Shown here: in pieces, positions 14,624 to 25,690 of the stretch
How positions within the stretch are numbered: position 1 is the stretch's first letter
Layout: every line of letters begins with the position of its first letter
NCBI GenBank assembly: GCA_022706235.1
Contig: JAKJCY010000007.1
Coordinates: 10,459 to 55,752, forward strand
Direction of reading: 5' to 3'
DNA from: Candidatus Hydrogenedentota bacterium
GTDB taxonomy: Bacteria > Hydrogenedentota > Hydrogenedentia > Hydrogenedentales > CAITNO01
Length of the DNA: 45,294 nucleotides
Notes under the pieces: generated by a model
The model's database searches: none
Told to the model about the DNA's origin: nothing
The model's input: the letters and a program-made list of their open reading frames with translations, nothing else
Made by a program: the position numbers and the translations under genes

Positions 14624-17305
14624 ATGCCGTCTGCTTGCTTTAGCCGAATTGCTATTCATGTTCCTTCCCGTATGTCGCTTATCACGGCGTGCCTTGCGAT
14701 ACTGCTGCTTTCTTTTCCCTTGACGGCGTCTCCGTTGAACTGGGAGGAACTCCCGCCGCTGCCGAACGCGGACGGTGTTGCAGGGCCTTTCGTCGGGGTG
14801 CACGGCGACGCGCTTCTTGTCGCGGGTGGCGCCAATTTTCCGAAACCCGTCTGGGAAACGGAAAAGACTTTTTATGACAGTATTTATGTCCTGCTTCGTG
14901 AACACAAGGACGGCAAAACGGCCTACCGTTGGGTTACAGGATTCCATCTTGACCGGCCCATCGCCTACGGCGTTTCCGTTTCCACAGCCCGGGGTGTGGT
15001 CTGTATTGGTGGAAACGATGCCTCACGGGTCTACGCGGATGTTTTTCTGCTCCGCTGGAATCCGAACACGCAATCGGTCGAGCGGGAATCCCTGCCGTCC
15101 CTGCCCGGGCCCCGCACCAACGCGTGCGCGGCCGTTATCGGAAACCAGGTGTACCTGGCTGGGGGAACTTTAGGCTTGGACTTGGGAACCGCTACCGCTG
15201 ATTTCCTTTGCCTTGATCTCGGGAACGCGAATCCGGCATGGGAGCGTTTGCCCGCTTGCCCGGGACCGTCCCGGGCCTTTGCCATCGCCGCCGTGCAGAA
15301 CAACGGTGTCGACGAATGCGTCTATGTTTTCAGCGGCCGCCGCGTGAACGAAAAAGGTGGAACGGAATTTCTCAAAGACGTCTGGGAGTTCAACCCGGCC
15401 AGCCTGCGTGCGGACATCGGCGGGAGTGGGGGAAAAAGCCCCTGGCGTCAACGGGCCGATGCACCGCGCTGCATGATGGCGGGTACGGGTATTGCCCTCG
15501 GCCAGAGCCATATTTTCCTCCTGGCCGGCGCGGATGAAACCCATTTCCATGAGGTGGATGCGCTCAAGGACGCCCATCCCGGCTTCCCGAAAGAGACCTT
15601 CGCCTATCACACCATTACCAACACATGGACCAGCGCCGGCGCCACGCCCGCAAACCAGGTGACCACCACGGCGGTGCGGTGGGGAAGCGATACCGTCAAG
15701 GACCCCATTATCCTGCCGAGCGGGGAACTGCGGCCCCGGGTGCGCACGCCGCAGGTGTGGCGAATCACACCCGTTCCGGGCGTGGAGCATTTCGGTTGGA
15801 CGGATTTCTCCGTGCTGGGTCTGTATCTGGCGGGCGTGATCCTGGTGGGTGTCTTTTTCGCGTTCAGGAACAGGACAGCAGACGATTTCTTCCGGGGCGG
15901 CCAGCGGATTCCCTGGTTCGTGGCGGGGATGAGCATTTTCGCCACCATGCTGAGTTCCATTACCTTCATGGCGATCCCGGCAAAAGCCTACGCCACCGAC
16001 TGGGTGTATTTCCTTGTGAACATGACGGCGGTGGCGATTGCACCGGTGGTGATCCTGCTTTTCCTGCCCTTTTTCCGGAATATCGACGCTACAAGCGCTT
16101 ACGAGTATCTCGAAAAGCGTTTCAACCGTCTTGCCCGGCTGTTCGCCAGCGCCTCCTTCACCCTGTTCCAGGTGGGGCGCATGGCGGTGGTCCTGTACCT
16201 GCCCGCCCTGGCCCTGGCGGCCATCACCCCCCTGTCGGAACAGCAGAGCATTCTGCTCATGGGCGTGTTGAGCATCGTTTACTGCGCCATGGGCGGCCTG
16301 GAAGCCGTGGTATGGACGGATACGATCCAGAGTTTTGTGCTGTTGGGCGGGGCCCTGTTCAGCCTTGTGCTGATTGTGACCCAGGTGGACGGCGGCCTGG
16401 CCGGGTTTTGGGATACCGCCATAGCGAACGAAAAACTGCATTTCGCCAACCTGGATTTTTCAGCGCACAGTTTCGCCACCACCGCCCTGTGGGTGGTGGT
16501 GCTGGGCGGGCTTGGCCAAAGCCTGGTGCCCTACGCGTCCGATATGGCGGTGGTGCAACGGTACATGTCGGTGCCGGATATAGGCCGGGCGAAAAAAGCC
16601 ATCTGGACCAACGCCGTGGCGGTTATTCCCGCCTCGCTGCTGTTCTTTGGTATGGGCACCGCCCTGTTCGTTTTTTACGCGAACCACCCGGACCGGCTTG
16701 ATCCCACCTTCAAGACCGACGCCATCTTCCCGCTCTTTATCGCGCGGGAGCTCCCTGCCGGTATCGCCGGACTTGTCGTGGCGGGCATTTTCGCCGCGGC
16801 CCAGTCCACCATTTCCACGAGCATCAACAGCATGTCCACCGCGGTCGCCACCGATTTCATAAAACCGTTAAACCTGATCAAGACGGAACGGGGCTACCTG
16901 TTCCTCGGCCGGGTGCTCACGGTCCTTTTCGGGACGGCCGGGGTGCTCCTGGCGCTGCTCTTCGCCTCCTCGGACATTATGTCGCTGTGGGATCAGTTCA
17001 TGAAGATCCTCGGCCTCTTCGGCGGCGCCATGTGCGGTCTGTTCTGCCTGGGCATCTTCACGACCCGCGCCAACAGCACCGGCGCAATCATCGGCGCCCT
17101 GGCCGGCGCAGCCGGGCTTTTCCTGGTGCAACAATATACACCTGTCCATTTGCTGCTGCACGCCTTTGTGGGTGTCGCCCTTTGTTGTATCATCGGATAT
17201 GCCGCCAGTCTGCTGTTCCCGCCCATGAAACGTTCGATCGAAGGGTTGACCATCTATACGCCCCGCGATGAAGAAAAGACGGTCCTGGAAAATACTAAGA
17301 TGTGA
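14624..17305 (+). CDS. NanM-like kelch mutarotase fused to SSS-family Na+/solute symporter
   Basis: An 893-residue fusion with an AGGAG site before ATG 14624. A hydrophobic signal (residues 17-40) precedes a six-bladed kelch propeller to about residue 385, with the N-acetylneuraminate epimerase signature LLVAGGANFPKPVWE and a DSIYVL strand. From about residue 390 (GWTDFSVLGLYLAGVILVG) a sodium:solute symporter core follows with roughly 13 membrane segments, including DDFFRGGQRIPWFVAG and SSITFMAIPAKAY. The propeller would lie outside the cytoplasmic membrane, converting the alpha anomer of sialic acid to the beta anomer directly at the transporter mouth. Similar fusions are known in a few environmental phyla. 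It is almost certainly co-transcribed with the AGE epimerase. The transported sugar is inferred. Confidence 0.88.
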   Translation: MPSACFSRIAIHVPSRMSLITACLAILLLSFPLTASPLNWEELPPLPNADGVAGPFVGVHGDALLVAGGANFPKPVWETEKTFYDSIYVLLREHKDGKTAYRWVTGFHLDRPIAYGVSVSTARGVVCIGGNDASRVYADVFLLRWNPNTQSVERESLPSLPGPRTNACAAVIGNQVYLAGGTLGLDLGTATADFLCLDLGNANPAWERLPACPGPSRAFAIAAVQNNGVDECVYVFSGRRVNEKGGTEFLKDVWEFNPASLRADIGGSGGKSPWRQRADAPRCMMAGTGIALGQSHIFLLAGADETHFHEVDALKDAHPGFPKETFAYHTITNTWTSAGATPANQVTTTAVRWGSDTVKDPIILPSGELRPRVRTPQVWRITPVPGVEHFGWTDFSVLGLYLAGVILVGVFFAFRNRTADDFFRGGQRIPWFVAGMSIFATMLSSITFMAIPAKAYATDWVYFLVNMTAVAIAPVVILLFLPFFRNIDATSAYEYLEKRFNRLARLFASASFTLFQVGRMAVVLYLPALALAAITPLSEQQSILLMGVLSIVYCAMGGLEAVVWTDTIQSFVLLGGALFSLVLIVTQVDGGLAGFWDTAIANEKLHFANLDFSAHSFATTALWVVVLGGLGQSLVPYASDMAVVQRYMSVPDIGRAKKAIWTNAVAVIPASLLFFGMGTALFVFYANHPDRLDPTFKTDAIFPLFIARELPAGIAGLVVAGIFAAAQSTISTSINSMSTAVATDFIKPLNLIKTERGYLFLGRVLTVLFGTAGVLLALLFASSDIMSLWDQFMKILGLFGGAMCGLFCLGIFTTRANSTGAIIGALAGAAGLFLVQQYTPVHLLLHAFVGVALCCIIGYAASLLFPPMKRSIEGLTIYTPRDEEKTVLENTKM

Positions 17306-17336
17306 AGTGTGTCTACCTTTTTACGGAGAAGTGTCG

Positions 17337-18635
17337 ATGTCAATTGTGGAAGAATACCCGGGTTTGACGATGATTCCTATCTCAGAGCAGACGACAAATA
17401 TCTGTGGGAGATTCATTTCTGCCCTATTGCTCCTTATCGGTGTTATGCAAGGGGCGGTATCCGAGGATACCTGGAGGCTGGAAGCGCAGCAACGCATCGA
17501 ACAGATTCGAAAATCTGATTTGACGGTTCGTGTAACGGACGTTGACGGGAAGCCGTTGTCCGATATGCCTGTGCATGTCACCATGATCCGCCACGCCTTT
17601 CCCTGGGGTACCTGTGTGAAGGCGCAACGTATAACCGGAGATTCGCCGGATGATGCGATCTACCAGGAAAAAGTAGTTGAATTGTTCAATTGCGCGGTCC
17701 TTGAAGACGCGCTGAAGTGGAACGGGTGGCATGGGGCGTACGGCCCGAGTTTTACCCGCGAGAACACGGAGGCGGCGTTAAAGTGGCTCAAGGAAAGGGC
17801 TTTTCGCATCCGGGGACATTGTCTGGTGTGGCATGGATGGGAAAACCTGCAACCTTGGGGAGCAACGCTTGCCGACGATTTGCCGGACCTGCGGCGACGT
17901 ATACTCGAACATATTGATGAATTGTCCGAATTCACCCGGGACTACGTGGACGAATGGGATGTCGTCAATGAACCGGTAAATGTTAACGAGGTGCTCACGG
18001 TACTGGGCGAGGAGGTCCTGGCGAGGTGGTTTCACCGCGCCCGCGCGGCGCTGCCGGATTCCTGCCGACTGTTCATCAACGAATATAACATTGTTGAACC
18101 TTTCAGTGCCGGTACGCGGGATGCCTATGAAGCGATTATCCAGGCATTACTTGACGCGAAGGCGCCTCTGGAAGGGATAGGATTTCAAAGCCACTTTCAA
18201 CTTCCGCCCGAATCGCCCGTTGAAGCCCTACAGGTCTTTAACCGCTTCGCCCGTTTTGGTCTGCCCATTGTCGTAACGGAATTCGACGTGAATACAAAGG
18301 ATGAAGAGCGGCAGGCGCAATTCACACGTGATTTCCTCACCGCCGCCTTCAGTCATCCTGCCTGCACCGGTTTTGTCTTCTGGGGGTTCTGGGAAGGCGC
18401 CCATTGGCGTCCGGACTCCGCGTTGTTTCGAAAGGACTGGTCGGAAAAACGGAATCTTGCCGTGTATCGTGACTTGGTCTTTAAAGAATGGTGGACCAAT
18501 GAGACCGGTAACACGAACGCGTATGGCGAGTTCGCTCTGCGGGCGTTCAAGGGAATGCACACGGTTATTGTCGGCAATCAGGAGAAGGTGGTGGAGATAG
18601 GGGACAGTGCTGCTAAGATGGAGGTTATTCTTTGA
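17337..18635 (+). CDS. GH10 endo-xylanase-like hydrolase
   Basis: A 432-residue secreted GH10 enzyme; ATG 17337 follows GGAGAAG. A hydrophobic segment (FISALLLLIGVMQGAVS) serves as the signal. Residues 62-95 form a short beta domain often seen before GH10 barrels. The barrel shows HCLVWHGW, E212 in WDVVNEPVN (expected acid/base) and E315 in VVTEFDVN (expected nucleophile), and ends with VFWGFWEGAHWRP. It would cleave beta-1,4-xylan or related beta-glycans. The tail after FALRAFKG is a low-similarity extension. Its last 90 codons have a paralogous copy at 20327-20611. It lies 31 bp after the symporter gene and is probably in the same transcript. Confidence 0.9.
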   Translation: MSIVEEYPGLTMIPISEQTTNICGRFISALLLLIGVMQGAVSEDTWRLEAQQRIEQIRKSDLTVRVTDVDGKPLSDMPVHVTMIRHAFPWGTCVKAQRITGDSPDDAIYQEKVVELFNCAVLEDALKWNGWHGAYGPSFTRENTEAALKWLKERAFRIRGHCLVWHGWENLQPWGATLADDLPDLRRRILEHIDELSEFTRDYVDEWDVVNEPVNVNEVLTVLGEEVLARWFHRARAALPDSCRLFINEYNIVEPFSAGTRDAYEAIIQALLDAKAPLEGIGFQSHFQLPPESPVEALQVFNRFARFGLPIVVTEFDVNTKDEERQAQFTRDFLTAAFSHPACTGFVFWGFWEGAHWRPDSALFRKDWSEKRNLAVYRDLVFKEWWTNETGNTNAYGEFALRAFKGMHTVIVGNQEKVVEIGDSAAKMEVIL

Positions 18636-18800
18636 TGACAGCGCTATTCCCCTCGTTCCCAAACGGAAGAAGGCCCAAAGGACGCCTCGACGCGTACACT
18701 GAAAAACCACAGAAGACAGGATTTTCCCGTGCCCGTCACGCGCAACATTAGTCACCAGGAAGTCATGCTAAAAGTTTCTTAACTATGGTATAATTTTCCA

Positions 18801-19043
18801 ATGGTCGAATACAGATATACAGATTATTTTGACAATGAGGTATTAAGGAAGCGTTCTTACTTAAGAAAAGCATGGTGTGTATAGGTAGTCGAAAATGCCG
18901 AAAAAGTTGAATCCCAAGAACAGAATCGGTGTCGGTTTTGGGCTAGGATTCCGGAACTTGAAAATCGGTACCTGCGTGTTGTTACCTTGGATGACAAGAT
19001 TACCATACATAATGCTTTTCCAGATGGGCGATTCAAGTTATGA
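18801..19043 (+). pseudogene. Toxin-like partner gene interrupted by one in-frame TAG
   Basis: Reading from ATG 18801 gives 80 codons in one frame with a single TAG at codon 28 (18882-18884) and a final TGA at 19041-19043. The residues on both sides (TDYFDNEVLRKRSYLRKAWCV, then VVENAEKVE and LRVVTLDDKITIHNAFPDGR) match a small-protein family that I recall as a frequent partner of DUF2283. Only one base change (for example GAG to TAG) separates it from an intact gene. The end overlaps the DUF2283 start as ATGA. A TATAAT at 18789-18794 directly upstream could be a -10 box with a weak -35. Read-through, sequencing error or true inactivation are all possible. Confidence 0.7.
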
Positions 19044-19255
19044 AAATGAAATACTATAAAGTCACCGATTCTCTCTATATCGATCTTTCAGAGAATCCCA
19101 GTGTTGAAAGTAAAGAAGTTTCAGAAGGTGTTGTTCTTGATTATGACGTCAATGGCAACTTGGTTGGTATAGACATAGACAATGCCGCCTCAAAGGTTGC
19201 CATGGACAAAATTGTGGTCAGTAGTATGCCCGGATCGGTTGAAACCGCCGCCTGA
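19040..19255 (+). CDS. DUF2283 domain protein (third copy)
   Basis: A 71-residue protein with the DUF2283 pattern: MKMKYYKVTDSLYIDLSENP, EVSEGVVLDYDVNGNLVGIDI and an amphipathic tail. It overlaps the amber-interrupted partner gene by four bases, an arrangement identical to the pair at 4710-5152. If the partner is dead, this would be an antitoxin-like gene surviving alone. It separates the GH10 gene from the FGE-fold lipoprotein. Confidence 0.8.
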   Translation: MKMKYYKVTDSLYIDLSENPSVESKEVSEGVVLDYDVNGNLVGIDIDNAASKVAMDKIVVSSMPGSVETAA

Positions 19256-19406
19256 TGAAATGAGAAACACCAACAGGAACGGGAATGTGAGTGGGGTTGT
19301 GCATGTTTTTATGGTGAAGTGTCTCTGTCCCTGCACGTAGAAATAAACAATTGTGCCCCTGTTTATTAAAATAGAGGCCTCGGTGAATCCAAAGAAGAAG
19401 CAAGGG

Positions 19407-20330
19407 ATGAAAGTGCCACTTCCCAATTTACCCAATGTGTTGCGGAGGATCGCACTCCTTGGCATAAGTCTGCTTGTAGGCCTTTCCAGAACCGGTTGTA
19501 GCGCTTACAATACAGATAATGAGCCGTTGAGCGATACGACCAACGTGACGGAACGGACGATTCTGCTGCCGGGAAGCGTGCCGCTGGTGCTGGTGTGGAT
19601 ACCCCCGGGCAGTTACCAGATGGGCCGGTATCCGGGCGAGGCGGACAGCCAGTCAGACGAAGATCCGCAACATCCGGTCACGCTGGCGTATGGTTTCTGG
19701 ATGGGCAAGTACGAGATCACGCAGCAGCAGTGGCTGGCGGTGCGTGGTTCGTGGCCGGGCACGGCGCCATCCGCAGACATCGGACTTGGCAACACCTATC
19801 CTGCCTATTGCATCTCCTGGGATGACGCGAAAAATTTTATCACGACGTTGAACGCTCATATCGTGAGTAGCGACCAGGGGCCGTTGACGGTGCGTCTGCC
19901 CAGCGAGGCGGAGTGGGAGTATGCCTGCCGGGCAGGCACGACCACCCGCTTTTACTTTGGCGATTCAGCGGAATGTAGCGCCACGGACTGTTCGGATTGC
20001 GCGGCAGGTACACTGCCGGGCAACCGCACAAACTACATGCGGTACTGCGGCAAGAGCAAACCCGTGGGCGGCAAGACAGCAAACGCCTTCGGGTTGCACG
20101 ACATGCACGGAAATATGTGGGAGTGGTGCGAAGACGACCGCCACGCGGATTACGACGGCGCCCCCGCGGATGGAAGCACGTGGATTGATTCGCCGCGGGC
20201 CTCATCCCGGACAATCCGGGGCGGTGGTTGCGGCGACTACCCTTTGATGTGCCGGTCGGCGTCTCGGGGCGGTCTCGCACCGGACTCTCGGTCCGACATT
20301 TTCGGTTTCCGTCTTGCCGCAGTTCAATGA
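19407..20330 (+). CDS. SUMF1/FGE-fold lipoprotein with variable-region-like C-terminus
   Basis: A 307-residue protein; ATG 19407 with upstream AAGAAG starts a signal ending near C31 (a poor lipobox, SRTGC). Residues 62-305 are the formylglycine-generating-enzyme (C-type lectin-like) fold: WIPPGSYQMGRYPGEADS, YEITQQQWLAV, RLPSEAEWEYACRAGT, GLHDMHGNMWEWCED and the terminal GFRLA. The canonical catalytic cysteine arrangement is not seen; only C275 and C282 lie in the last segment. From R271 to A305 a fixed scaffold (RGG, CRSA, R, PD, R, GFR) alternates with positions that are asparagine in many retroelement template repeats; most of these codons end in C or T. I infer a surface-displayed binding protein, possibly a retroelement target, rather than a sulfatase activator. 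Confidence 0.83.
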   Translation: MKVPLPNLPNVLRRIALLGISLLVGLSRTGCSAYNTDNEPLSDTTNVTERTILLPGSVPLVLVWIPPGSYQMGRYPGEADSQSDEDPQHPVTLAYGFWMGKYEITQQQWLAVRGSWPGTAPSADIGLGNTYPAYCISWDDAKNFITTLNAHIVSSDQGPLTVRLPSEAEWEYACRAGTTTRFYFGDSAECSATDCSDCAAGTLPGNRTNYMRYCGKSKPVGGKTANAFGLHDMHGNMWEWCEDDRHADYDGAPADGSTWIDSPRASSRTIRGGGCGDYPLMCRSASRGGLAPDSRSDIFGFRLAAVQ

Positions 20331-20611
20331 TTCCCGCCTGCACCGGGTTTGTCTTCTGGGGGTTCTGGGAAGGCGCCCATTGGCGTCCGGACTCCGCGTT
20401 GTTTCGAAAGGACTGGTCGGAAAAACGGAATCTTGCCGCGTATCGTGACTTGGTCTTTAAAGAATGGTGGATCGATGAGACCGGAAAAACAAAGGAGTAT
20501 GGCGAGTTTGCCTTGCGTGCCTTCAAGGGAACTTACCGGAGTACCGTTGGCGCCCGGGAAAGGACCGTGGAGATTGAGACTGATAAAAAAATAGTGGAGA
20601 TTGAGATGTAA
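20327..20611 (+). pseudogene. 3' fragment of a second GH10 gene
   Basis: A 94-codon open frame whose first 70 codons are close to identical with codons 341-410 of the GH10 gene at 17337-18635 (CTGFVFWGFWEGAHWRP through FALRAFKG); the last 25 differ while staying in frame. DNA identity begins abruptly near 20336, a few bases after the stop of the lipoprotein gene, whose TGA overlaps this fragment's ATG. All catalytic residues are missing. It is best read as what remains of a tandem GH10 paralogue whose 5' part was replaced by the preceding DNA. The overlap might still allow coupled translation of a short peptide. Confidence 0.78.
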
Positions 20612-20686
20612 TCTCTGCTGCTTTTTATAGTTACTTAAATCGTACGCAACAACGCCTCGGTCTTGGAATAAATAGAAAGCTGACCT

Positions 20687-21754
20687 GTGAAAACCTGTTT
20701 TATTTCTGTCGCTCCGATGATTTGGGTGATAGGTATTCCCGTAATAATGACATGGCATCAAGGTATACCTTCGGCGGCAGGCGCCATTGAAGCCATAGAA
20801 AGTTCTATGTGCCAACCAACCATGTTCTATGCCGACAGTGACCATGGCGCGCCTTTTGCCAAGGACCCGGATGTGGTGCGCTTTGGCGGGCGGTATCTCC
20901 TGTATTATTCCATACGAATGCCCGGACAAATCGGTATCGGCATCGCCGAGAGCGACGACCTGGCCCAATGGCGCAAGGTCGGGGAACTGGAACCGGCCGC
21001 CGACTATGAACGGAAAGGCGTTGCCGCGCCGGCCGCGCTGGTACATGAAGGGAAGGTGCACCTCTTTTACCAGATCTACGGGAACAAGGAGAAGGATGCC
21101 TTGTGCCACGCCGTTTCCGAAGACGGACTTCGCTTTGAACGGAACACCACCAACCCCATCTTCGCGCCGACGGGCGGCTGGACCGTGGGACGCGCCATTG
21201 ATGCGGATGTTTACATTGAGGGCGACACGGCTTTCCTGTACGGCGCCACCCGCGACCCGCAGATGAAGCAACAGATGCTGTTTGTCGCTACCGCGCCGGT
21301 GGCGGCGGGATTCAATCGAGACAGTTGGACGCAACGCTGCGATGCGCCTATTCTCAAGCCGGAATTACCCTGGGAAACGAACTGCATCGAAGCGCCATCC
21401 GTGCTTAAACGCAAGGGGCGTTTCTTCATGTTCTATGCCGGGGGTTACAACAACGACCCGCAGCAGATCGGTGTGGCGGTATCCGATGATGGCATTGCCT
21501 GGGAAAGACTTTCAGACAAACCGTTATTGCCTAACGGCCCGGAAGGCTCGTGGAATCACAGCGAATCTGGGCATCCCGGCGTTTTTGTGGATGATAACAG
21601 TGAGGTCTGGCTCTTTTTTCAGGGGAACAACGACAAGGGGAAAACCTGGTACCTGTCGAAGATGCGCGTGGCCTGGGACGATGAAGACCTGCCGTATCTG
21701 ATACGAGTGGAAGACGGCCATGAGTTTCATCTGGTGCAGACACGGCAACTGTAA
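20687..21754 (+). CDS. GH43/GH117-like five-bladed beta-propeller glycosidase
   Basis: A 355-residue secreted protein; GTG 20687 begins a hydrophobic signal that ends around SAAGA, with no strong ribosome binding site (ATG 20717 is an alternative). Repeated blade patterns are clear: KDPDVVRFGGRYLLYYS, APAALVHEGKVHLFYQIYG, APSVLKRKGRFFMFYAGGY and HPGVFVDDNSEVWLFFQGN. D60 or D62 at the first blade and E235 in IEAPSV are candidate catalytic residues by analogy with the GH43/32/117/130 clans. These enzymes act on arabinose, xylose, fructose, mannose or neoagaro-type linkages; the specificity cannot be set. It lies in the polysaccharide-degradation cluster, 75 bp after the GH10 fragment. Confidence 0.75.
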   Translation: MKTCFISVAPMIWVIGIPVIMTWHQGIPSAAGAIEAIESSMCQPTMFYADSDHGAPFAKDPDVVRFGGRYLLYYSIRMPGQIGIGIAESDDLAQWRKVGELEPAADYERKGVAAPAALVHEGKVHLFYQIYGNKEKDALCHAVSEDGLRFERNTTNPIFAPTGGWTVGRAIDADVYIEGDTAFLYGATRDPQMKQQMLFVATAPVAAGFNRDSWTQRCDAPILKPELPWETNCIEAPSVLKRKGRFFMFYAGGYNNDPQQIGVAVSDDGIAWERLSDKPLLPNGPEGSWNHSESGHPGVFVDDNSEVWLFFQGNNDKGKTWYLSKMRVAWDDEDLPYLIRVEDGHEFHLVQTRQL

Positions 21755-21871
21755 GCGACTATGAATCCCATCTTACCAGACATCCTGAATCCACTTCGTC
21801 GACCTTTCACAATGTATCCGGGAACCAGTTGAAACGATTTTTTTTGTCGTTTTGAGTGGATCATAAGTAAG

Positions 21872-21910
21872 TTGACAGCACGTATGCTAACGGCTGTATA
21901 CTGTATGCAG
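21872..21910 (+). promoter_or_regulatory. Promoter and operator-like palindrome of the VapBC-type module
   Basis: TTGACA (21872-21877) lies 19 bp upstream of TATACT (21897-21902), or 17 bp from TGTATA. CTGTATACTGTATGCAG (21894-21910) is a 17-bp palindrome matching at 14 positions. It overlaps the -10 box and the AGGAGA ribosome binding site, a typical layout for autorepression by a ribbon-helix-helix antitoxin. Confidence 0.6.
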
Positions 21911-21922
21911 GAGATGTTGCAT

Positions 21923-22168
21923 ATGCCTTTACTACAAGTTCGTGGATGTCCGGAAGATTTATACAAGAAGGTTGCCCTGGTTGCAAAGCGGCAGAATCGT
22001 ACGATAGCCCAGCAGGTGGTGGTATTGCTTGAGAAGGGGTTGGGCCAGGAGGAATCCAACCGGGAGCGTCGTCAACGGTTGCTTCGTGCGCTTGAGACGT
22101 GCAAAGTGCCGGGGAAAGCGCAAGCGATAGACGCGTCCGAGCTCGTTCGCGAGGACCGTGACCGATGA
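21923..22168 (+). CDS. FitA/VapB-like ribbon-helix-helix antitoxin
   Basis: An 81-residue protein; ATG 21923 is chosen because AGGAGA lies eight bases upstream. The N-terminus LLQVRGCPEDLYKKVALVAKRQNRTIAQQVVVLLEKGL fits a FitA-type ribbon-helix-helix DNA-binding domain, with the beta-strand LLQVRG and two helices. The charged C-terminal tail would wrap the toxin. It overlaps the PIN toxin gene by four bases (ATGA). With its partner it would bind the palindrome at 21894-21910 and repress its own operon. Confidence 0.8.
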   Translation: MPLLQVRGCPEDLYKKVALVAKRQNRTIAQQVVVLLEKGLGQEESNRERRQRLLRALETCKVPGKAQAIDASELVREDRDR

Positions 22169-22563
22169 ACATTGTCCTGGATGTCAGCGCTACCATGGAG
22201 ATCCTTCTTCAGAAAGAAAAGAAAGACCTTTTCAGCGGTCACATCGCGGAGGCTTCCTGGGTGATTGCGCCTGACCTGTACGTTTGTGAACTCTCCAACG
22301 TAGTGTGGAAGTATTACCGGTCAAAAGTCGCTTCCAGGGCGGATTGCATTGCCTGGGCGGAGCGGGGCATTGCGCTGATTGACGATTTCATGGACAGCCG
22401 TGAACTTTGGCAGGAAGCGCTTGGCGAGGGGATTAAGTATGCCCATTCCGTTTATGACCTGTATTATGCCGTTCTGGCCAGAAGAAACAATGCTGTTCTG
22501 CTTACCACCGACAAGACATTGGAGGCATTGTGCAGAAAGATGAAGATAGCGTGCCGCTTTTAG
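22165..22563 (+). CDS. PIN-domain toxin, VapC type
   Basis: A 132-residue PIN-domain ribonuclease. The four acidic residues that bind Mg2+ are seen as D6 (VLDVSA), E42 (CELSNVVWKY), D98 (SVYDLYYAVLARR) and D116 (LLTTDKTLE). VapC toxins cut tRNA or rRNA and are held inactive by the antitoxin encoded just upstream. Length and motif spacing are normal, so it looks functional. It lies between the GH43-like gene and the sialidase gene, in a region with several such two-gene modules. Confidence 0.88.
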   Translation: MNIVLDVSATMEILLQKEKKDLFSGHIAEASWVIAPDLYVCELSNVVWKYYRSKVASRADCIAWAERGIALIDDFMDSRELWQEALGEGIKYAHSVYDLYYAVLARRNNAVLLTTDKTLEALCRKMKIACRF

Positions 22564-22738
22564 CCGCCGGCCTCTCCAACTTCAGATTTCCTGACGTCGT
22601 CGGAAATTCACACGGCATCGGTAAACAAACATAGAGACGGAGCAAAAAAGGACTTATAACGAAGTAGCCCGTTGCCCTGTCATTCGGTATCGTATCCTGG
22701 TAAGCAGACGCCATAATCACCGAGGAGGAATGTTTATT

Positions 22739-25690
22739 ATGAAACTGTCGCTTACACTGAATCTGTTCCTTTTCCTGTCCGTACTCACTGCAGTGGAATG
22801 CGCGGTGAGCATCGCCGAACCCATCGGTACGCCCCTCTACACGCAGGGCGAGCATGGCTACCATACGTATCGCATTCCCGCGCTGGCCGTCACGAAGCAG
22901 GGGACGGTGCTCGCCTTCTGTGAGGGGCGCAAGACCTCCGGGGGTGACAGTGGCGACATCGCCATTGTGCTCCGTCGCTCCGGGGACAACGGCGATACCT
23001 GGGGTGAACAGCAGGTGGTCTGGGACGATCCCGGCAACACGAGCGGCAATCCCTGCGTGGTGGTGGACCGGGATACGGGCGTTATCTGGTTGCTGATGAC
23101 CTGGAACCTGGGCGACGACCATGAGAAGGACATCATCGCCCTGCGCAGTAAGGACACGCGCCGCGTGTTTGTCACCCGTTCAGACGATGACGGCCAGACC
23201 TGGAGCCCCGCAACGGAGATCACCTCCGAAGTGAAACAGGAGAACTGGACCTGGTACGCCACCGGTCCCGGCAGCGGGATACAACTCCAGCACGGCCCCC
23301 AAAAGGGCCGCCTGGTCATTCCCTGCGACCATATCGAGGCGGAAACGAATCACTATTACTCCCATGTTATTTATTCCGACGATCATGGCAACACCTGGCG
23401 GCTGGGCGGCAGAACGCCCGATCACCAAGTGAACGAATGCGAGGTGGTGGAACTGGCCGATGGACGGCTGATGCTGAACATGCGCAACTATGACCGGGAT
23501 AAGAAATATCGCCAGGTCGCTTTCAGTGAGGACGGGGGGATGACCTGGAAAGACCAGGCCTTTGACACGGAACTTATCGAACCCATCTGCCAGGCGTCCA
23601 TTACGCGGCACCGCTGGCCGTCCGGGGACGTCCCCGGCGCTATTGCCTTCAGCAATCCGGCCAGCAAGGACCAGCGTGTGAACATGACCGTGCGCGCCAG
23701 CTTCGATGAAGGGCGCAGCTGGAGCGCGAGCACGGTGCTGCACACCGGGCCCAGTGCCTATTCTTCGTTGGCTGTGTTGCCCGACGGTCAACTCGCCTGC
23801 CTGTACGAGGCCGGAGAAAAACATCCCTACGAGTCCATTGTGTTCGCCCGGATTCCCCTGCCGACGCCGTTCCTGCCGTCCTTGCCCGAAGGCTGTTCCT
23901 GGGATCTGGTCTGGCAGGATGAATTTGACGGGGACGCGATTGACGAAGGTAAATGGGAGATCATCGGGGACAGCCCACGCCGGGACGGGTTCTGGGTGAA
24001 TGAGGACGCCGCCCTCGACGGCAAAGGAAACCTGGTGCTGCGGACGAAAAAGGACGGCGACCGCTATACGAGTGGGGCGATCCGTACCCTGGACAGGTTT
24101 GAAAGCACCTACGGGTATTGGGAAGCCCGGTGTGAATTCCCCACCCAGCCGGGGCATTGGCCCGCGTTCTGGCTCATGCCGCCGAGAGGTATCGTTTCGC
24201 TTGAACAGGACGGGCAGGACGGCACGGAAATCGATATCATGGAGAAACCCTGGCGGGAGGATAAAATCCAGCACGCCTTGCACTGGAACGGCTACGGCGA
24301 ACACCACAAATCGGAAGGTAAGGTTTCCGAAATTCCCGGTGTCAGCCAAGGCTGGCACACCTTCGGCCTGTGGTGGACGCCGGAAGAATACGTCTTTTAC
24401 GTGGACGGCAAGGAAACCTGGCGCACGGCCGCAGGCGGCGTATGCCAAGTGCCGGTCTTTATTAAACTCACTGAAGAAATAGGGGACTGGGGCGGTGATA
24501 TCACCGAGGCGGCCCTGCCGGACACATTCCGCGTGGATTACGTCCGCGTCTATCAGGAGAAGGCAGCGCCGGTTGCGGATGGACCGGAAGCGCTACCCTT
24601 GGTGGATATTGCCGGAGACACCGGGCGACAGGTGGTGATTGCGGCGGGCACGGAAACGGTCTACCAGGGCCATCCGACCACGGTGCTGCTGCCCGACGGC
24701 AAAACGATGTTTGCCGTGTGGTGTATTGAACACGGCGGGCTTGCCGGGCCTATGGCCAAAAGCATCGACGGCGGCCTCACCTGGACGCGGATCGACGACC
24801 GGATGCCGGAAGGCTTCAAAACCCACCGGAACTGTCCCAGCATCTACCGCATGGAAGGGCCGGACGGTGTCGAACGGCTGTGGGTGTTCTCCGCCTGCAC
24901 TGGTGAAAAGGGCGGGCCACCGTACATGCCGCGTATCCTGAGCGAAGACAGCGGCGACTCTTGGCGCGAAATGGAGCCCTTGGGTGATAAATTCAATTGC
25001 GTCATGACCTTCAGTTCCGTGCTGCGCCTCAAGAACGGCGCGCACCTGGGCATGTACCATCGGCGTAGCGGTCCGGAAAATAAATTATTGGAAGTGGTGC
25101 AGACGATTTCACCGGACGGCGGCCTTACCTGGTCCGACCCTGTGGTCGTTGCCACGGTCCCGGATAAAATGCCCTGCGAACCTTTCGTTTTCCGCTCCCC
25201 CGACGGCAATGAACTCTGCTGTCTCATGCGAGAGAACACCCATAAAGGCCGCGGCCTGATGATGTTCAGCCGTGACGAGGCGCGGAGCTGGTCCACTCCC
25301 GTGAACACGCCCTGGGGCCTGAGCGGCGACCGGCACATGGGCGTATACGCACCCGATGGACGGCTCGTGATCGCTTTTCGTGACCGCGCGCCGGACAGTC
25401 CCACCTCGGGACATTTCGTCGCCTGGGTGGGCGCTTACGACGACATCCGCAACGGCAGGCCCGGCCAATCCCGCGTTAAACTGCTCCACAGCCACTCCGG
25501 AAGCGACTGCGGCTATCCTGGTGTGGAACTGCTTCCCGACGGCACCATCGTCGCCACGACTTACATCAAGTACCGCGAAGGCAAGGCAAAACATTCCGTA
25601 GTCAGCACGCGCTTTACATTGGAAGAAATTGATCGGATATTGAATGACGCTCCCGATGTGAAACACTCCGGCAGGGGTGGAAGCCATTAG
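22739..25690 (+). CDS. Three-module sialidase: GH33 - GH16 - BNR propeller
   Basis: A 983-residue secreted protein; ATG 22739 is chosen because GAGGAGGAA lies nine bases upstream. After a signal peptide (residues 1-22), residues 25-380 form a GH33 sialidase with the YRIP motif (R45), CEGRK, and Asp boxes such as [16 protein letters not shown] and SEDGGMTW. Residues 385-608 are a GH16 jelly roll with EIDIME, giving E497 and E502 as the expected nucleophile and acid/base of a laminarinase-like enzyme. Residues 625-970 are a second propeller with Asp boxes ([24 protein letters not shown]) but no YRIP. The last ten codons and the TAG lie in an intergenic repeat. It would release sialic acid from glycans bound through the GH16 site. 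I know of no standard enzyme with this order. Confidence 0.87.

Follow-up and report, generated by a model that had tools for sequence, protein, structure and literature searches.

A formylglycine-generating-enzyme-fold gene of Candidatus Hydrogenedentota with a probably retired remote target of a diversity-generating retroelement

The window gene and its locus

The window, a stretch of 45,294 nucleotides from a Candidatus Hydrogenedentota genome, contains an ORF whose product has the fold of formylglycine-generating enzymes (FGE) and C-type lectins, with a variable region (VR) at its C-terminus (Table 1). The likely start of the gene is the ATG at 19407, which yields a protein of 308 residues (19407-20330). 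The ORF matches the FGE-sulfatase family PF03781 with an E-value of 2.4e-45, and its relatives of solved structure include PvdO (5HHA, E=3.5e-30), TvpA (2Y3C, E=2e-11) and FGE. An AlphaFold2 model, for which 30 homologues served as input, reached a mean pLDDT of 84.5, and a Foldseek search of the PDB with this model ranked PvdO first and TvpA third, with FGE also matched. The protein's best match with a named source is from Candidatus Hydrogenedentota. The N-terminus carries a hydrophobic segment followed by an imperfect lipobox (...LSRTGC), and the protein is probably surface-anchored. Fold and scaffold are shared with the FGE/PvdO family (PF03781); unlike those enzymes, the window protein appears, on the best evidence, to be a putative binding scaffold, and the first-pass annotation had judged the catalytic cysteines of a true FGE to be out of place. 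We infer that it is displayed at the membrane and binds a ligand. Since the scaffold residues are still conserved, the protein looks functional.

Table 1. Features of the window gene and its surroundings
Feature	Position	Strand	Remarks
FGE/C-type-lectin-fold protein ORF	19353..20330	+	325 aa; PF03781, TvpA and PvdO matches
FGE module	19493..20330	+	missing from the matching position of two genomes in the same genus
VR, 43 codons homologous to templates TR251/TR35	20193..20321	+	changed: A 26/35; non-A, positions 1-2, 2/53; non-A, position 3, 13/41
Segment of the first-pass annotation, RGG to stop	20217..20330	+	16/18 diverse residues on A-containing template codons
3' part of GH10 gene, right after the window-gene stop codon	20332..20531	+	92.5% identical to 18356-18555

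The first-pass annotation had proposed that the C-terminus of this protein is a remote target of a diversity-generating retroelement (DGR), with diverse residues between scaffold positions and codons that mostly end in C or T. Counted from 19407, residues 274-281, 286, 288-291, 294 and 296-299 are exactly the codons it named, and 15 of these 18 end in C or T, compared with 162 of 307 in the whole gene (binomial p=0.007). The proposed segment is real, although the stretch homologous to a template begins earlier and ends before the stop codon. The scaffold motif RGG..CRSA.R...P..R...GFR is the family consensus and is common to ordinary FGE-fold proteins, so it is not diagnostic by itself. What is diagnostic of the window VR is its match to a template at the DNA level.

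The flanks of the gene resemble two different genomes of the same genus, G005 and G006. Window positions 14971-19492 are 95.7% identical to G005 contig C186, and this match stops at 19492, inside the N-terminus of the window gene. For positions 20628-23238 the match is G006 (94.3% identity), in which the GH10 gene runs directly into this stretch without an FGE gene. These two matches place the FGE module at a junction. The 200-bp copy of the GH10 3' end now stands where the VR originally had its own 3' flank. Positions 17268-20611 form a mosaic of a G005-type GH10 gene with its flank, the FGE module and the 3' end of a second, G006-type GH10 copy.

DGR machinery and the template of the variable region

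The genome of the window gene is a draft MAG of 545 contigs, 88% complete and with 6% contamination. The retroelement had been predicted to lie elsewhere in this genome, and a DGR reverse transcriptase (RT), an Avd gene and A-rich templates (TRs) are found on other contigs; the absence of an RT and of an A-biased template, which had been named as grounds for dismissing the proposal, is therefore not what we observe. Contig C534 carries a complete DGR in the order FGE-fold target with VR, Avd, RT (RT534) and TR (TR534). TR534 is full of AAC codons, and RT534 has the motif LPIGNQTSQ. This RT and two from G006, RT35 and RT7, all carry LPIGN(Q/L)TSQ and Y(V/M)DD, which includes the (I/L)GxxTSQ signature of DGR-type RTs, and RT35 matches the reverse transcriptase of PDB 8ub7 with an E-value of 6.8e-47. 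The Avd of C534 matches NF033474 with 82.2 bits (cut-off 80) and phrog_3206, 'Avd protein of DGR'. An accessory HRDC gene adjoins RT7. An RT on C222 was ruled out as part of a DGR, being of group II type, and an ORF on C251 (3165-3683) that appeared Avd-like by eye matched none of the PHROG families.

Beside TR534, the genome holds three more TRs rich in Asn codons, on contigs C251, C240 and C29. Targets that fit these templates cleanly are also present: the cis VR of C534 differs from TR534 at 15 of 33 adenines and at none of 63 other bases, a remote VR on C144 differs from the same template at 22/33 and 3/63, and the VR of C88 differs from TR29 at 20/27 and 4/66. TR29 (L073 7110-7225 on C29, minus strand) and TR240 (L072 640-760 on C240) are orphans, with no recognised RT on their contigs. 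Their flanks are alike (75% over 509 bp), and an RT-adjacent TR on G005 contig C316 shares 90% identity with TR240 over 266 bp.

Among the four TRs of the genome, TR251 fits the window VR by far the best. TR534 was rejected as its template (27/75 non-A mismatches versus 14/78 for TR251), and TR29 and TR240 also fitted worse than TR251. A wider comparison with every TR detected in 68 genomes from the order again put TR35/TR251 first and yielded no closer TR. TR35, identical in sequence to TR251, lies directly behind a DGR RT on G006 contig C35, to which C251 is 98% identical over 3571 bp. TR251 sits at the end of C251; the contig breaks off at the start of the TR, which leaves no RT beside it in this assembly. 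Contig C35 also has a second, degenerate TR-like repeat upstream of its RT (L124 1194-1287).

As the first-pass annotation had anticipated, an A-biased template exists, and the fit of TR251 to the window VR is far beyond what chance would give. At codon positions 1 and 2, 25 of 33 template adenines are changed compared with 2 of 53 other bases (p=1e-12). Adenine sites are also changed more often than third positions (25/33 versus 14/43, p=2e-4). Seventeen of the 19 amino-acid differences from the template fall in A-containing codons. Of the 18 diverse residues, 16 correspond to TR251/TR35 codons whose first or second base is A, of which there are 17 in 35 (hypergeometric p=6e-7); the two exceptions are TGG->TGC and GCC->CCT. 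In the scaffold of the gene, the ratio of A to non-A changes is only 1.2-1.5. The further expectation that mismatches would coincide only with template adenines did not hold, since 15 of 94 non-A bases differ as well, 13 of them at third codon positions.

A pattern shared by ordinary FGE-family proteins had also been named as counting against the proposal. Such proteins do share the scaffold motif, and unrelated FGE domains even show some A excess against the TR, with p down to 5e-5. We therefore dropped the simple A-versus-non-A Fisher test as sufficient proof and used tests by codon position. By this measure the VR stands apart: its 2/53 non-A changes at positions 1 and 2 compare with 14-22/53 in control FGE domains without a template and 10-11/53 in ctrl_L003, which was scored with the controls.

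Live homologues and silent sites

The nearest homologues of the window gene are demonstrable DGR targets. A gene on G006 contig C406, 75% identical to it in DNA, differs from TR35 at 16 of 35 adenines and at 1 of 94 other bases, and its contig has neither the RT nor the TR, which makes it a clean remote target. A 78% homologue on G006 contig C7 adjoins an HRDC gene, an RT and a TR, and its VR is changed at 24/36 adenines and 7/94 other bases, counted over a segment that extends past the VR end. In the genome of the window itself, a gene on C99 is 79% identical to the window gene. Over the scaffold, the C99 and C7 genes are 98.3% identical, while the first 45 bases of the VR hold 10 differences, none of them at third positions; the C99 contig breaks inside the VR. 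In the live VRs of C534 (cis), C144 and G006 C255, non-A mismatches number 0-3 of about 63-95.

We compared third positions between scaffold and VR. The C406 gene and domain 3 of USDV differ at 78 of 201 third positions in the scaffold and at only 2 of 43 in the VR, whereas the window gene and C406 differ at 79/196 and 14/43, respectively. Being rewritten from a template makes the VRs of diverged genes alike at silent sites, and live VRs are homogenised in this way. The window VR is not: at silent sites it has diverged as much as the gene body. We found no second strain or orthologue of the window gene that could show a frozen VR directly.

Contig C44 (L074) of the same genome encodes a protein of ~2500 aa built of six FGE domains in tandem, and every domain has a VR-like segment at its end. 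Compared with its counterpart on G005 contig C23 (L127), the first two VRs show one base difference each between the species, while the other VRs differ strongly. From these comparisons, the first two domains of the tandem array appear to carry frozen VRs.

Origin and fate of the window variable region

We consider it probable that the window VR was made by a DGR and later retired, leaving a frozen remote target that is no longer rewritten. The gene is, or once was, a DGR target, and it lacks what defines a current one, identity to the TR outside adenines. The first-pass proposal of a remote target is thereby upheld in its template pairing and by clean homologues in cis and at remote sites, but not for a currently active target, given the 15 non-A mismatches and the silent drift. 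Retirement is suggested by this drift, which resembles that of the gene body. In such a history, the TR of a TR35/TR251-type RT-TR cassette would have been reverse-transcribed with errors at adenines, and the cDNA would have replaced the VR by mutagenic retrohoming, setting the ligand-facing residues. Later the gene would have been transferred to, or joined anew at, the place behind the GH10 gene where it now lies. Drift without overwriting would then have preserved a single fixed binding surface, whereas its sister targets elsewhere in the genus are still rewritten. We conjecture that replacement of the flank removed what homing needs. That retirement followed from losing a BPP-1-like hairpin is unsupported: a search for a BPP-1-type hairpin or cruciform found no stem of at least 5 bp behind the VR in the window, nor in the clean targets g6C406 and g8C1313.

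The TR may, however, be under constraint as coding sequence is, and the third-position differences could then stem from a diverged TR missing from the assembly of this 88% complete MAG. The window VR would in that case be an active remote target whose in-trans TR is absent from the draft and differs from TR251 mainly at third positions, which we regard as rather unlikely. TRs do vary between and within genomes (TR7 and TR35 differ at five of 129 bases), and contigs break at VR and TR ends (C99, C251), so TRs are easily lost in assembly; the order-wide search nevertheless returned no better TR. Clean remote targets are present in this genome (C144/TR534, C88/TR29), but the silent divergence of the window VR is what is expected without overwriting, and its natural 3' flank has been swapped for a GH10 fragment.

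It is very unlikely that the gene is an ordinary FGE-fold paralogue with a tolerant fold loop, resembling the template because the TR was derived from a related gene. The common scaffold pattern and the A excess of unrelated FGE domains would fit such an origin; the rarity of non-A changes at positions 1 and 2 (2/53, compared with 10-22/53 in the comparison domains) and the demonstrable DGR targets among the nearest homologues argue against it, and neutral tolerance cannot make adenine sites change more than near-neutral third positions. TR251 itself might belong to a sister-species contaminant, as contig C251 shares 98% identity with G006, compared with about 85-95% at other loci (85% for C534/C255), and contamination is 6%. 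That the MAG is a mixture in which the window gene and TR251 come from different related organisms, with trans pairing between species only, is extremely improbable, as the genome has its own complete DGR on C534 with cis and remote targets, and its tandem target on C44 is related to the same TR.

DGR targets that are remote, multiple, leftover or built of tandem FGE domains have already been described (PMC3521204, PMC10907252, PMC4891356), while our literature search found no DGR paper on the phylum Hydrogenedentota. A close parallel is TvpA of Treponema denticola with its remote target lipoproteins (PMC4891356; PDB 2Y3C), which share the FGE-type C-type-lectin fold, the C-terminal VR, lipoprotein signals and a location far from the RT. 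Treponema SP32 has a leftover remote target, in which 19 of 21 mutations fall at template adenines (PMC4891356). Unlike Treponema, the present case involves another phylum, several DGRs and TRs per genus, tandem multi-VR proteins and 15 non-A differences in the window VR. The DGRs with multiple or distal VRs in the DiGReF survey likewise have distal paralogous targets, stable beside variable paralogues, and one ORF with three tandem FGE-sulfatase paralogues (PMC3521204). Those distal targets change at A without accumulating other mutations (PMC3521204), whereas the window VR has accumulated them. The trans-acting DGRs of Thiohalocapsa PB-PSB1 also have remote targets in trans, multiple VRs per gene and one VR that no longer varies (PMC10907252), but their trans VRs match the TR perfectly at non-adenine sites (PMC10907252), which the window VR does not.

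Surveys limited to the RT neighbourhood miss remote VRs (PMC8144416); here, a VR was recognisable from its codon pattern alone and was then tied to a template on another contig. The point of interest is the mixture of live and frozen VRs within one genus. It is possible, and we suggest it only tentatively, that these Hydrogenedentota have a two-tier receptor repertoire, in which several RT-TR cassettes and orphan TRs rewrite the live VRs in trans, and frozen VRs (those of the window gene and of domains in the C44/C23 tandem array) have dropped out of mutagenesis and are conserved as fixed, selected binding sites, a genomic 'memory' of specificities made by DGRs. Within the genus, live and frozen VRs can be matched at comparable overall divergence (C99/C7 versus the first two C44/C23 domains), so that it becomes testable whether DGR-made binding sites are rewritten endlessly or become fixed.

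Two further loci bear on the exchange of templates and targets. The FGE VR of contig C111 (L010) in the genome of the window gene is closer to TR255 of a sister species (6/63 non-A mismatches) than to its own TR534, which suggests TR replacement or target transfer. In a different family of the order, contig C695 of genome G043 (L224, L249) has a TR 91% identical to TR35, a likeness that hints at horizontal cassette transfer.
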